From assembly GCA_900473045.1 (NCBI GenBank), contig UCKS01000051.1:62001-126000 (forward strand): a DNA stretch of 64,000 nt, in the 5' to 3' direction. Below, piece after piece: positions 55,444 to 59,401 of this stretch (position 1 is the stretch's first letter; every line of letters begins with the position of its first letter). Under the pieces are notes generated by a model. The model saw nothing but the letters and a program-made list of their open reading frames with translations, had not been told where the DNA came from and made no database searches. The position numbers and the translations under genes were made by a program. This DNA is from Hyphomicrobiales bacterium (GTDB taxonomy: Bacteria; Pseudomonadota; Alphaproteobacteria; Rhizobiales; Rhizobiaceae).

Positions 55444-56952
55444 TCACCCATTACCGGCATTCTGTTGCTCCAGCCGAACGTCGGACATTGCCCGCCGCCC
55501 GAATGCGGCAGCACGGGCAATGTCCGAGCGGAAACGTGCCATTTCCTCATGCTTGCGCCCCTCATCCGGGATGCGCAGGAGATAGGCGGGATGCACGGTA
55601 ACAAGCAGCGACTGTCCGGCGCCGAGCTGCAGCATCTCGCCGCGTAGATCGGTCAGCCGCTGCCGGCTGTCGGTCAGCGCCATCAGCGCCGTTGATCCCA
55701 TCGCCACCACCAGCTTCGGCTTGACCAGCGCCAGTTCCCGCGTCAGCCACCATTTGCAATGCTGGACCTCGCCAACATTCGGCTTTTGGTGGATACGGCG
55801 CTTGCCGTGCGGCTCGTATTTGAAATGCTTGACCGCATTGGTGACATAGGTGCTCTGACGCTCCAGCCCGACCTCCTCAGCGACAGCATTGAACACCGCA
55901 CCGGCCGGGCCAACGAATGGCCTGCCGGCAAGATCCTCCTGGTCGCCCGGCTGTTCACCGACGATCATGATCTCGGCGTCCTGCGGTCCCTCGCCGAAGA
56001 CAGTCTGCGTTGCGCTGCAATGCAGGGCGCAGCGCGTACAATGCCGTGCCTCCTCGCGAAGCTCCTCAAGCGTCCCTGCCGGCGGCCGGACAATCTCCGG
56101 CTCGGCCTGGGCAATGGCCTGCAGCCGCTGGTGAAACAACGGTGCCTCGCTGGCGGCCCGTTCGGCCATGGCAATGACGCTCGCCTCGGCACCGGCAATC
56201 AGGCCCGGAATGAGCTCCGCCTCCGGCAGGTTCTTCCAGTATTTCTTCGGCATCTCCGTCATCATCATCTTCACCTTCAGGCGGGCTGGATTGAAGATGT
56301 TGGAAAAATAGGTGCGCCATAGTGTATCGGTTTGATCGGTCAGCATCGGATTTTCTGCCGGCTGCGTCGAAATCGTCAACACCTCGCCGTCCCAGGCCGC
56401 GGTCCCCTTGGGCGTGGCGATGATCCAGTCCATGTCGGTAAAGCGGCGCTGGAAGAACGGCGCGACGCGCGCAACGATATGATGATCGGGCTCGAACCAC
56501 GCCAGAAAACGCCGGCGTGCGGGCCCCTCTTCGGCGTTAATCTCCTTGAAGCGGACGAAGGCCGTCATCTTGTGGCAATCGCGCCGCACGGATTTTTCCA
56601 TCGCGTTCAGCTGCGCCACGTCGGCATTGGAAAGCACCTCCAAAAGCGTACGCTCCTCCTGCAGCCGAAAGAGAACCCGGTAGAGAAGCTGGAAACGCAA
56701 GGGATCGCTGTGGCAGATCACAGCTTGCGCCAATGACAGGAAAGCCTTCGGCACCGTTACGGTGGACGCTATCGCAGCAGTAGCAACAGCCGTCTCCGGC
56801 ACTTCCGCAGCGGGTGCAAACAGATCGTCCGCCGCACCGTTCCTGCAACGCCAGTCGATGGTTCGCGGTTCTGTGCGCGCAAGCAGCAGAGACCGGGCAG
56901 CCTCCCGCCACTCGGTCAAATCTCCCCGGCCCTCCAGCAGAATCGTCTCCAT
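55444..56952 (-). CDS. udgX: UdgX-type uracil-DNA glycosylase fused to a DUF4130/SAM-linked domain
   Basis: 502-aa fusion. Residues 1-270 form a domain found linked to radical SAM proteins (DUF4130-like). Residues about 295-480 form a family 4 style UDG with cluster cysteines (306, 309, 400), GEQPGDQED and HPAYLLR. The KRRIH motif (385-389, numbering with the preceding GTG; His389) is the UdgX mark; its His binds uracil-excised DNA covalently. ATG at 56952 shares one base with the radical SAM stop (TGATG). Confidence 0.93.
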   Translation of the reverse strand: METILLEGRGDLTEWREAARSLLLARTEPRTIDWRCRNGAADDLFAPAAEVPETAVATAAIASTVTVPKAFLSLAQAVICHSDPLRFQLLYRVLFRLQEERTLLEVLSNADVAQLNAMEKSVRRDCHKMTAFVRFKEINAEEGPARRRFLAWFEPDHHIVARVAPFFQRRFTDMDWIIATPKGTAAWDGEVLTISTQPAENPMLTDQTDTLWRTYFSNIFNPARLKVKMMMTEMPKKYWKNLPEAELIPGLIAGAEASVIAMAERAASEAPLFHQRLQAIAQAEPEIVRPPAGTLEELREEARHCTRCALHCSATQTVFGEGPQDAEIMIVGEQPGDQEDLAGRPFVGPAGAVFNAVAEEVGLERQSTYVTNAVKHFKYEPHGKRRIHQKPNVGEVQHCKWWLTRELALVKPKLVVAMGSTALMALTDSRQRLTDLRGEMLQLGAGQSLLVTVHPAYLLRIPDEGRKHEEMARFRSDIARAAAFGRRAMSDVRLEQQNAGNG

Positions 56953-58184
56953 CACAACAGCGCCAGCTGCTCGGGCTTCGGCTCGAACATGGCCCGCAGA
57001 TCGGAGCGGTCGATCAACCGATGCGGCGTCCAGCCCTCGGTCACGACAAACGACTGCACTTTCTTGATCGAGACATGCAGACGCGCCAGATCCTCCAGCC
57101 GTAAACGGCGATGACGTCTGGCAGAAAGGATGCCATTGACCGCCTTCGTTCCCAGGCCTGGCACCCGCAGCAGCATCTCGCGTTCGGCCGTGTTGATATT
57201 CACCGGAAAACGATGGCGGTTGACCAGCGCCCAGGCGAGTTTCGGATCAAGCTTCAGGTCGAGCATGCCATCCGGCTGGTTTTCGGTGATTTCCTCGATG
57301 CCGAAGCCATAGAAGCGATAGAGCCAGTCGGCTTGATAAAGCCGGTGCTCGCGCATCAGGGGCGGCTTGATCAAAGGCAGGTTTTTCGACGCATCAGGGA
57401 TGGGGCTGAACGCGGAATAATACACCCGGCGCAGGCCATAGCTGCCGTAGAGCCGGGCGCTGGTGCCAAGGATGACCTTGTCATTGGCCTGATCGGCTCC
57501 GACGATCATCTGCGTGCTCTGCCCGGCCGGCACGAAACGCTTGCGCCGCTTGGTCTGCAGCGTCGGATCGTTGGCAGCCTCGATCTTCAGCCGGAGTTCG
57601 CCCATCGACTTGCGGATATTGGCCGGCCGCTTTTCCGGCGCAAGCCGGGTCAGCCCCGTATCGGTCGGCAGTTCGATATTGATCGACAGGCGATCGGCAT
57701 AAAGCCCGGCCTGCTCGATCAACAGCGGCGAGGCCTCCGGAATGGATTTCAGATGGATGTAACCGCCAAAATTATGGGTGACGCGCAATTCGCGGGCGAT
57801 GCGGACCATTTCCTCCATCGTGTAATCCGACGAGCGGATAATCCCGGACGAGAGAAACAGGCCCTCGATATAGTTGCGCCGATAGAATTCCAGGGTCAGC
57901 CAGACGACTTCCTCGACGCTGAACCGCGCACGCTCGACATTGCTGGACGAGCGGTTGATGCAGTAGGCACAATCGTAGATGCAGAAATTCGTCATCAGAA
58001 TCTTGAGCAGCGAGATGCAGCGGCCGTCCGGCGCATAGGCGTGGCAGATGCCGGAGCCTTCCGTCGATCCGAGCCCGCCGGACTTCGACGAATCGCGCTT
58101 CACTGTCCCGCTGGAGGCGCAGGAAGCATCGTATTTGGCAGCATCGGACAGGATGGCCAGTCGTTCGTTCAGCGACTTCTTCAT
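56952..58184 (-). CDS. Putative DNA modification/repair radical SAM protein linked to UdgX
   Basis: 410-aa radical SAM enzyme. The cluster motif CX3CX2C is Cys68, Cys72 and Cys75 in NFCIYDCAYCINR. A helix-hairpin-helix-like region near the C-terminus (LLRVPGLGTKAVNGILSARR) suggests DNA binding. This family always seems to neighbour a UDG-fused protein as here; its reaction is unknown, and DNA lesion repair is inferred. No ribosome-binding site stands out. The genes are translationally coupled. Confidence 0.92.
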   Translation of the reverse strand: MKKSLNERLAILSDAAKYDASCASSGTVKRDSSKSGGLGSTEGSGICHAYAPDGRCISLLKILMTNFCIYDCAYCINRSSSNVERARFSVEEVVWLTLEFYRRNYIEGLFLSSGIIRSSDYTMEEMVRIARELRVTHNFGGYIHLKSIPEASPLLIEQAGLYADRLSINIELPTDTGLTRLAPEKRPANIRKSMGELRLKIEAANDPTLQTKRRKRFVPAGQSTQMIVGADQANDKVILGTSARLYGSYGLRRVYYSAFSPIPDASKNLPLIKPPLMREHRLYQADWLYRFYGFGIEEITENQPDGMLDLKLDPKLAWALVNRHRFPVNINTAEREMLLRVPGLGTKAVNGILSARRHRRLRLEDLARLHVSIKKVQSFVVTEGWTPHRLIDRSDLRAMFEPKPEQLALL

Positions 58185-58311
58185 AATTGTTCATGTTATG
58201 TTCTTATCGGTTTGGGGTCAACATGAGAAAACCCGGAAATATCGGAACGATTGGCGCAGGCGTCCGTTGTAAGCGCGAACCCTCCCCAAGCTTTCAAAAG
58301 GAGATGGCGCG

Positions 58312-58872
58312 ATGCCGTTCATCGACAAATCGAAAATCCTCATCCTTGCCACCCATGGCTACGAACGTTCGGAACTGCGTGTTCCACTCGACGAGCTGAA
58401 AAGGCGTGGCGCCGACGTCAAGATCGCCGCGATCGACAGGGAGCCGATCAAGAGCTGGGACAACAAGGATTGGGGTGACGCGGTCAATGTCGATCTTCTG
58501 GCCAAGGACGTTGATATCGGCGACTTCGATGCGCTGGTTCTGCCGGGCGGCCAGATGAACCCGGATATCTTGCGCCACGATGAGGACGCCATGCGCGTCG
58601 TCAAGGAATTCGTCGCATCCGGCAAGGTCGTCGCCGCCATCTGCCATGCGCCCTGGCTTCTGATCGAAGCCGATGCCGCGCGCGACCGCAAGATGACCTC
58701 CTATATCTCGATCAAGACCGACATGATCAATGCCGGCGCCATCTGGTCGGACGAGCCCGTCGTTACCGACAAGGGCATCATCACCTCGCGCAACCCGGAC
58801 GATCTCGACGCATTCGTGAAAAAGATCGTCGAGGAAATCGAAGAAGGCCGCCACGAGCGCCGCGCTGCCTGA
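58312..58872 (+). CDS. DJ-1/PfpI family protein
   Basis: 186-aa class I glutamine amidotransferase-like protein. The nucleophile elbow is AICHAPW (Cys111, His112) with Glu18 in GYERSEL near it. Such proteins act as deglycases, chaperones or proteases under stress. AAAAGGAG lies in front of the ATG. It is followed by a PNPOx-fold gene after 22 bases, forming a likely stress operon. Confidence 0.9.
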   Translation: MPFIDKSKILILATHGYERSELRVPLDELKRRGADVKIAAIDREPIKSWDNKDWGDAVNVDLLAKDVDIGDFDALVLPGGQMNPDILRHDEDAMRVVKEFVASGKVVAAICHAPWLLIEADAARDRKMTSYISIKTDMINAGAIWSDEPVVTDKGIITSRNPDDLDAFVKKIVEEIEEGRHERRAA

Positions 58873-58894
58873 TCCCCAATCGACAAAGGAAACA

Positions 58895-59401
58895 ATGATG
58901 GCTGATATATCGAAGACGAAAACCGATCCGCTACAGCAACTCTGGGACGTGCTTGGCGATATCCATGCCGGCATGCTGGGCGTTGAGGAATCCCGCCAGC
59001 ACATGCAGCCGATGGCGCCGTTCGTCGAAAAGGAAAGCAATTCGATCTGGTTTTTCACCCGCACGGACAGCGATCTGATCAAGGCGGCGCGGACGGGAAA
59101 CCGGGCGCATTTCTGTGTCATCAGCAAGGATCACGACTATCATGCGTGCCTTGCCGGCGCGATCGACGAGGTCAAGTCCCGCGAGCATATCGACAAATAC
59201 TGGTCGGCTCCGGTGGCTGCCTGGTTTGAAGGCGGCAAGGACGACCCCTCGCTGACGATGCTTCAACTGAAGCTTGACGACGTGGCGATCTGGGCCTCGA
59301 CCAACAGCACGCTGAAATTCGGCTGGGAAATCGCCAAGGCCAATCTGACCGGCAAGGAGCCGGAACTCGGCTACCACACGCAGATTTCTCTGCCGCACTA
59401 A
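58895..59401 (+). CDS. PNPOx-fold general stress protein
   Basis: 168-aa pyridoxamine 5'-phosphate oxidase-like split-barrel, similar to the GsP26/general stress FMN-binding group. NSIWFFTRTDSDLIKA and LDDVAIWAST segments are typical. Probably binds FMN or F420-like cofactors; the substrate is unknown. AAAGGA precedes the double ATG (58895 or 58898). Two hairpins follow the stop. Confidence 0.88.
   Translation: MMADISKTKTDPLQQLWDVLGDIHAGMLGVEESRQHMQPMAPFVEKESNSIWFFTRTDSDLIKAARTGNRAHFCVISKDHDYHACLAGAIDEVKSREHIDKYWSAPVAAWFEGGKDDPSLTMLQLKLDDVAIWASTNSTLKFGWEIAKANLTGKEPELGYHTQISLPH

Follow-up and report, generated by a model that had tools for sequence, protein, structure and literature searches.

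A radical SAM–DUF4130 operon with LexA-type operators and an optional UdgX domain, and its proposed role in processing DNA lesions

The window analysed here is a stretch of 64,000 nucleotides of DNA from a Hyphomicrobiales bacterium. At positions 55444..58184, a preliminary description made from the sequence had placed a radical SAM protein and a UdgX fusion, and it was right in both coordinates and content. Both open reading frames match their families above the cut-offs. The first gene (56952..58184, reverse strand) encodes a 410-residue protein of the radical SAM family TIGR03916, with an NCBIfam score of 566.9 bits against a cut-off of 343.5. The second (55444..56952, reverse strand) encodes a 502-residue fusion which matches TIGR03915 (225.8 bits, NCBIfam cut-off 112.25) and DUF4130 (141.3 bits, Pfam cut-off 27), as well as the UdgX family TIGR03914 (326.8 bits, NCBIfam cut-off 189.95). 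Matching all three NCBIfam families in this way, the window's pair is an ordinary member in which no difference was seen. The genes overlap by a single base (TGATG); because the in-frame ATG at 56952 overlaps the upstream stop, we prefer it as the start of the fusion, which makes the listed GTG at 56955 less likely. Neither protein matches any PADLOC family, and a role in anti-phage defence was rejected on that count.

Beyond the window, the pair was followed in a sample of 150 genomes from the order and another of 200 from the phylum. TIGR03916 and TIGR03915 score above their cut-offs in the same 28 genomes of the order sample and in the same 31 of the phylum sample, and with identical genomes carrying both families in each case, the pairing cannot be due to chance. 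Eight pair-bearing genomes are common to the two samples, leaving 51 distinct ones, of which 48 (the window's included) were examined at the locus. In these the radical SAM and DUF4130 genes are adjacent on one strand with spacers of at most about 130 nt, the exception being L037 with one gene between them. The coupling first proposed from one locus is thereby borne out. Matches below the cut-offs were left uncounted in both samples; they comprise remnants in G050 (a short piece of the radical SAM start with a stop, and 58 residues from the end of the partner) and in G136 (the C-terminal part of a DUF4130 partner, 49 bits) together with short stretches of other proteins. Annotated plasmid records also show a gene order identical to that of the window's pair. 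The radical SAM and DUF4130 genes form the stable core of the operon, and the pair is widespread in bacteria. For the wider survey, 141 of 144 loci were tabulated, leaving out L001, L002 and L032 (the genome of the window itself), and counts over 138 loci also drop the fragmentary L134 together with L030 and L031, where a radical SAM protein is missing. These 138 loci are not independent of one another; L136 and L140, for instance, are near-copies.

The radical SAM protein carries the cluster motif CIYDCAYC (C68, C72 and C75; 57960..57983, reverse strand), and its CxxxCxxC form is found in all 111 aligned proteins, a set made up of the window and 110 loci after near-duplicates above a scaled score of 0.88 were removed. 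The same alignment reveals three extra, near-invariant cysteines in the stretch 58017..58121 (reverse strand): C22 (58119-58121) is kept in 109 proteins, and C47 (58044-58046) and C56 (58017-58019) in 110 each. A second metal site in the N-terminal part of the protein is therefore possible. This stretch is predicted with low confidence by AlphaFold2 (pLDDT below 50 at residues 22-32, 36-38 and 40-46), the mean pLDDT of the model being 87.4. For the radical SAM protein, 103 of these 111 rows went into the structure alignments, and for the partner 100 rows did. Among the fold matches listed for the model, lipoyl synthase and HydE come first and biotin synthase lower. These enzymes act on other substrates, and the resemblance shows no function. 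A helix-hairpin-helix region (PGLGTKAV; 57114..57206, reverse strand) had also been claimed, and its residues P342, G343 and G345 are indeed kept in 111 of 111 proteins, whereas the Pfam HHH_3 match over residues 327-357 is weak, at 21 bits under a cut-off of 27.

At its extreme C-terminus the protein ends in QLALL (56955..56969, reverse strand), a conserved motif resembling those that bind the beta sliding clamp. The consensus for such motifs, in the extracts of PMC12309361 and PMC11139829 available to us, is QL[S/D]LF, or Q-aliphatic-x-[L/M]-[F/L] with a six-residue variant. All 111 aligned proteins have Gln as the first tail residue; at the fourth position, 107 have Leu and four have Phe. 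A QxxLF-type motif falls within the last 16 residues of 134 of the 138 radical SAM proteins, compared with 8 of 1063 neighbouring ORFs (mechanical calls rather than curated genes), and the remaining four carry QLDLF, QGSLF, QLSFF and QLSLW in their last 45 residues if Gly is permitted at position 2. With a stricter form of the motif the figures are 110 of 138 and 1 of 1063; the looser QxxLF-type form also turns up in 8.8% of shuffled tails. Tails of this kind are found as QLILPF in Parabacteroides, QLSLF in Pusillibacter, QLSLGF in Acinetobacter and QLSLW in Gemmatirosa, whose protein is 35% identical to the window's. The strict clamp regular expression matched only 1 of 14 ImuB ORFs, so that the positive control within the loci failed and the argument for the clamp is purely one from conservation. 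On this basis, the QLxLF-type tail probably ties the radical SAM protein to the beta sliding clamp; it may instead be kept for another reason.

The partner protein begins with the TIGR03915/DUF4130 domain, which its profile match places at 56218..56928 on the reverse strand (G000:C55:118218-118928), followed by the UdgX domain at 55513..56214 (reverse strand). The AlphaFold2 model of the fusion has a mean pLDDT of 92.6 and a pTM of 0.62. All fold matches listed for it are UDG-like chains, and among these UdgX of Mycobacterium smegmatis is the closest solved structure to the UdgX half. All the UdgX motifs are present on the reverse strand: motif A, GEQPG, at 55945..55959; the R-loop KRRIH at 55789..55803; and motif B, HPAYLLR, at 55573..55593. 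The window's UdgX thus shares the GEQPG, KRRIH and HPxxLLR motifs of the M. smegmatis protein and differs from it in being the C-terminal half of a DUF4130 fusion, paired with a radical SAM protein and preceded by a LexA-type box. For the partner, 112 proteins were aligned (the window, 110 of 126 rows offered, and L139); the 16 rows left out by hand are mostly near-copies. Among the 92 fused proteins of this alignment, H388 of the R-loop is kept in 90, confirming the histidine that had been pointed out in KRRIH, with Q334 of motif A in 89 (Ala in three) and H454 of motif B in 90; the figure of 90 of 92 does not count L009 and L105, both without motif B, since they were among the rows left out. 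As for the exceptions at H388, L049 looks out of frame, with its UDG half in another frame, and L097 has a degenerate UDG half. In other UdgX proteins, according to the available text of PMC10359453, the histidine of the KRRIH loop becomes covalently linked to the abasic site once uracil has been removed, and UdgX bonds itself to its product without turnover (extracts of PMC10776899 and PMC10359453). The DUF4130 half is less readily placed. Its invariant residues in a 28-row alignment are R134, F135, P155, R170, I178 and R224; Arg, Trp and one Glu are conserved and no Asp, His or Cys is, and a search of its profile against PDB sequences returned nothing better than E 0.5. From this residue pattern, DUF4130 is probably a DNA- or lesion-binding adaptor.

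The sampled loci do not, however, support UdgX as the element by which the pair is defined. In 20 of the 112 aligned DUF4130 proteins it is absent while the radical SAM and DUF4130 genes stay in place, and no UDG ORF was found in the fetched locus of any of the 21 non-fused loci (these 20 and L138, which has no DUF4130 neighbour either). UdgX is therefore ruled out as an essential part. Of the glycosylase trap that had been proposed, the trapping histidine stands, being kept in nearly all fused proteins, but the pair can dispense with the domain that carries it. A recognisable exact operator is found in 12 of the 20 loci without UdgX. On the tree of the 111 radical SAM proteins, 101 of which could be labelled, the fused state changes 11 times, against a mean of about 18.6 for shuffled labels, and well-supported branches force at least seven changes between fused and unfused; one clade of six rows (L033, L135, L136, L137, L139 and L141) is wholly unfused. 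UdgX is an optional part of the operon, one that DUF4130 carries in the window's genome and in most sampled alphaproteobacteria.

Upstream of the operon lies the box GAACATAACATGAAC (58189..58203, reverse strand), which 4 nt separate from the ATG of the radical SAM gene. It is a perfect match to GAACN7GAAC, which we take to be the alphaproteobacterial type of LexA box, as we take CTGTN8ACAG to be that of E. coli. The window holds four matches to GAACN7GAAC where 1.82 are expected by chance, and 10 of 100 shuffles reach four, so that a single match means little and it is the conservation among relatives that counts. Counted from the start of the radical SAM gene, the alphaproteobacterial box falls between -250 and +40 in 117 of 138 loci, including 73 of 75 from named alphaproteobacteria and 27 of 27 from the order. 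By comparison, these loci hold 863 starts of other ORFs, and the box occurs at 11 of them, five of which belong to imuA-like ORFs. The 21 loci without this box were inspected singly, apart from L140. Seven of them (L038-L041, L046, L047 and L142) have CTGTN8ACAG 12-50 nt before the start, L137 from the Clostridia has two copies of GAACN4GTTC at -150 and -179, L121 has the looser CTGN10CAG only, and L058 and L084 have boxes with one mismatch, judged by eye. A different palindrome, GTCTCAN5TGAGAC, precedes the operon in L035, L109 and L125. No exact recognised operator was found in L033 (from the window's phylum), L135 (Parabacteroides), L136 (Acinetobacter), L138, L139 or L141. The sequence evidence thus indicates SOS (LexA) control of the operon. 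Regulation of this kind is already stated, in the available text of PMC8565304, for Verrucomicrobia, Alphaproteobacteria and Bacteroidetes, with a Caulobacter study given as the source for LexA and damage control in Alphaproteobacteria; ours is therefore a confirmation and extension of what is in print and not a discovery.

The neighbourhood of the pair points in the same general direction in some lineages. Among the neighbour clusters that recur, DnaE2 (15 loci) and ImuB (14) are the most frequent, and an ImuA-like cluster is found in seven; the names of all three were assigned from sequence, with a single member of each compared with family libraries. In L099 the DnaE2 ORF scores 1385.5 bits with NCBIfam and the ImuA ORF matches its NCBIfam model weakly (23.5 bits, cut-off 150), while the ImuB ORF of L119 has no NCBIfam match and contains Pfam IMS domains. 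At least one of imuA, imuB and dnaE2 lies nearby in 17 of 138 loci, a number that overstates independence because these neighbours are concentrated in two lineages; the fetched flanks of the other 121 hold none of the three. Divergent cassettes with imu genes occur in L008, L010, L012, L022 and L100. In L034, L099, L106, L111, L117, L119, L120 and L126 the pair sits between imuB and dnaE2, and the imu genes and the radical SAM gene are each preceded by a box of their own. In these loci the pair and genes of the ImuA-ImuB-DnaE2 mutasome are neighbours, and no relation between their sequences is claimed. In the window's genome, whose flank was not part of the neighbour clustering, DnaE2 is about 42 kb away. 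A DnaE2 match is found in 28 of 28 pair-bearing genomes of the order and in 88 of 122 without the pair (p 0.0003, ignoring relatedness and genome size), an association that may reflect either of these factors. No restriction or methylase gene was recognised among the 10 recurrent neighbour clusters, three of which were scanned against family libraries.

Some of this has been catalogued before. In the extracts available, PMC3765255 already links DUF4130 to radical SAM proteins and UDGs under the term mutagenesis-related, and PMC8565304 describes a COG4277-COG1573 pair which we regard as the TIGR03916 pair, the equivalence of COG4277 and TIGR03916 being our own reading; COG4277 was found only in PMC8565304 among the literature matches listed. 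The pairing itself is thus in print, and its SOS control partly so. In the open-licence literature, we found no papers for UdgX with DUF4130 or for UdgX with radical SAM, and no biochemistry or tested function of the pair or its families. The clamp-like tail, the extra cysteines, the gain and loss of UdgX on a stable core, the embedding in imu cassettes and the Lysobacterales palindrome were not met there either, though none was sought under its own name. To our knowledge, the cellular role of UdgX is unclear, and spore photoproduct lyase (SPL) is otherwise the only radical SAM protein known from DNA repair.

The preliminary description had suggested either repair or demodification of DNA. A role in DNA damage is well supported by the LexA operators, the clamp-like motif, the helix-hairpin-helix region and the translesion neighbours in 17 of 138 loci, and removal of a regulatory mark found no support here. 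Damage-type operators, a helix-hairpin-helix region, a clamp-like tail and, in some lineages, translesion neighbours together argue for a lesion-processing enzyme at replication sites. We favour, with moderate confidence, an SOS-induced, clamp-tethered radical SAM module that processes lesions alongside translesion synthesis and to which UdgX has been added as a covalent uracil trap. In such a scheme, LexA derepression on DNA damage would induce the operon, whose core is the radical SAM and DUF4130 proteins. The radical SAM enzyme would be expected to generate a 5'-deoxyadenosyl radical from SAM, its helix-hairpin-helix region would hold DNA, and its C-terminal QLxLF-type tail would tether it to the beta sliding clamp. 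Given such a tether, it would work alongside ImuA-ImuB-DnaE2 where replication has stalled or left gaps, and would use radical chemistry to remove or alter a base lesion or crosslink, with DUF4130 serving as the presumed DNA- or lesion-binding adaptor. UdgX, by analogy with the enzymology of other UdgX proteins, would cut out uracil, stay bonded to the abasic site and perhaps cap it until the fork has passed.

Tentatively, and with the odds somewhat against it, one may go further and see here, next to SPL, another kind of radical SAM enzyme for DNA repair: SOS-induced, clamp-tethered, with DUF4130 as its constant partner and possibly equipped with an auxiliary metal cluster, clearing a replication-blocking adduct or crosslink with ImuB-DnaE2, and joined in many lineages by a suicide glycosylase whose task would be to cap abasic sites left by uracil at the fork. 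If this were true, UdgX would gain a setting as an SOS-induced abasic-site cap at the fork. Were the clamp tail real, the search for the lesion would become concrete, since action would be expected at replication gaps beside translesion polymerases.

Direct reversal of pyrimidine dimers in the manner of SPL, implied by the SplB-like label and the remark 'might modify thymines' in the available part of PMC3765255, would share with this scheme its radical SAM chemistry, DNA-binding region and SOS control. SplB is likewise a radical SAM protein tied to DNA repair and, in the extracts of PMC8565304, SOS-regulated in several species. The window's protein is set apart from it by features, namely a constant DUF4130 partner, the helix-hairpin-helix region, the clamp-like tail and the extra cysteines. 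We consider SPL-like reversal unlikely. SPL was not among the fold matches listed for the radical SAM model, an absence that excludes nothing, and no SPL model appeared among the NCBIfam and Pfam matches of either protein, the NCBIfam SPL accession that was tried being absent from the library.

Two further explanations would place UdgX at the centre. In the first, close to the reading in the available text of PMC8565304, which speaks of base excision repair based on a UDG, the work would be done by UdgX, and the radical SAM protein would assist in the repair of uracil or ribonucleotides. The near-universal UdgX histidine of the fused proteins would fit this, but the core persists in the 20 of 112 partners that have neither UdgX nor a UDG ORF at the locus, and UdgX bonds to its product instead of turning over; such a system is distinctly unlikely. 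In the second, the radical SAM enzyme would break the His-C1' bond that holds UdgX on DNA. In its favour, DUF4130, the radical SAM protein's constant partner, carries UdgX as a fusion, and a UdgX-DNA crosslink would presumably need some repair route. Against this, the core exists without UdgX, the clade of six rows is unfused throughout and the label changes at least seven times, which makes a crosslink resolver very unlikely. Modification of DNA bases in place of repair, allowed by the family name 'DNA modification/repair' and by nothing else, is extremely improbable given the LexA-type operators in several lineages, the lack of a recognised restriction or methylase gene in the neighbour clusters (10, three of them scanned) and the lack of PADLOC matches.

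For the favoured lesion-processing module, a lead on the lesion comes from the rare palindrome GTCTCAN5TGAGAC. In three Lysobacterales-like genomes it is also found before other genes, in one ahead of uvrA and in two ahead of a helicase that has a zinc domain of the MrfA type. This leans weakly towards bulky adducts or crosslinks as the lesion. As a separate observation, G334:C13 has a GTCTCA palindrome with a spacing of 6 close to a gene for an RNA pseudouridine synthase, and it fits no recognised repair gene.

In this genome the operon, which pairs a radical SAM gene with a DUF4130-UdgX fusion gene, has two divergent neighbours (58312-59401 of the window), one encoding a member of the DJ-1/PfpI family and the other a pyridoxamine-oxidase-like protein, and the LexA-type box lies in the intergenic region shared by the operon and the DJ-1/PfpI family gene. 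Three matches to the translesion polymerase DnaE2 are found in the genome, one of them on the operon's contig (G000:C55:162188-165469), approximately 42 kb away and outside the window.

A different element precedes the operon in three Lysobacterales-like genomes, where the palindrome GTCTCAN5TGAGAC is located immediately upstream (L035 3161; L109 4956; L125 4956). Genome-wide, the palindrome occurs only 3, 3 and 1 times in these genomes, and the backwards control gave 0. Additional copies correspond to loci L150, L151, L152 and L153. One copy in genome G232 is upstream of uvrA, and copies in both G232 and G334 are upstream of an MrfA-type helicase; one G334 copy fits no recognised repair gene. 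Collectively, these sites appear to mark a small regulon of DNA-repair genes that has a dedicated operator.

A Gemmatirosa radical SAM relative (L138 7809-9260), 35% identical to the window protein, has the HhH region and a QLSLW tail but lacks the three N-terminal Cys, and no DUF4130 match was found in the 17 kb covered. The Acetobacter nitrogenifigens fusion (L097 6221-7648), judged from its alignment, retains a degenerate UdgX, with the motif A Glu, the covalent His and motif B all missing from its UDG half. Lastly, three loci carry a hemerythrin (HHE) gene with a Pfam Hemerythrin match between the radical SAM and DUF4130-UdgX genes (L037 5722-6198; L115 6256-6747; L118 6482-6958); the same position in L130, between 6227 and 6634, holds short frames only. 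The hemerythrin is possibly an oxygen or iron partner for the radical SAM enzyme.
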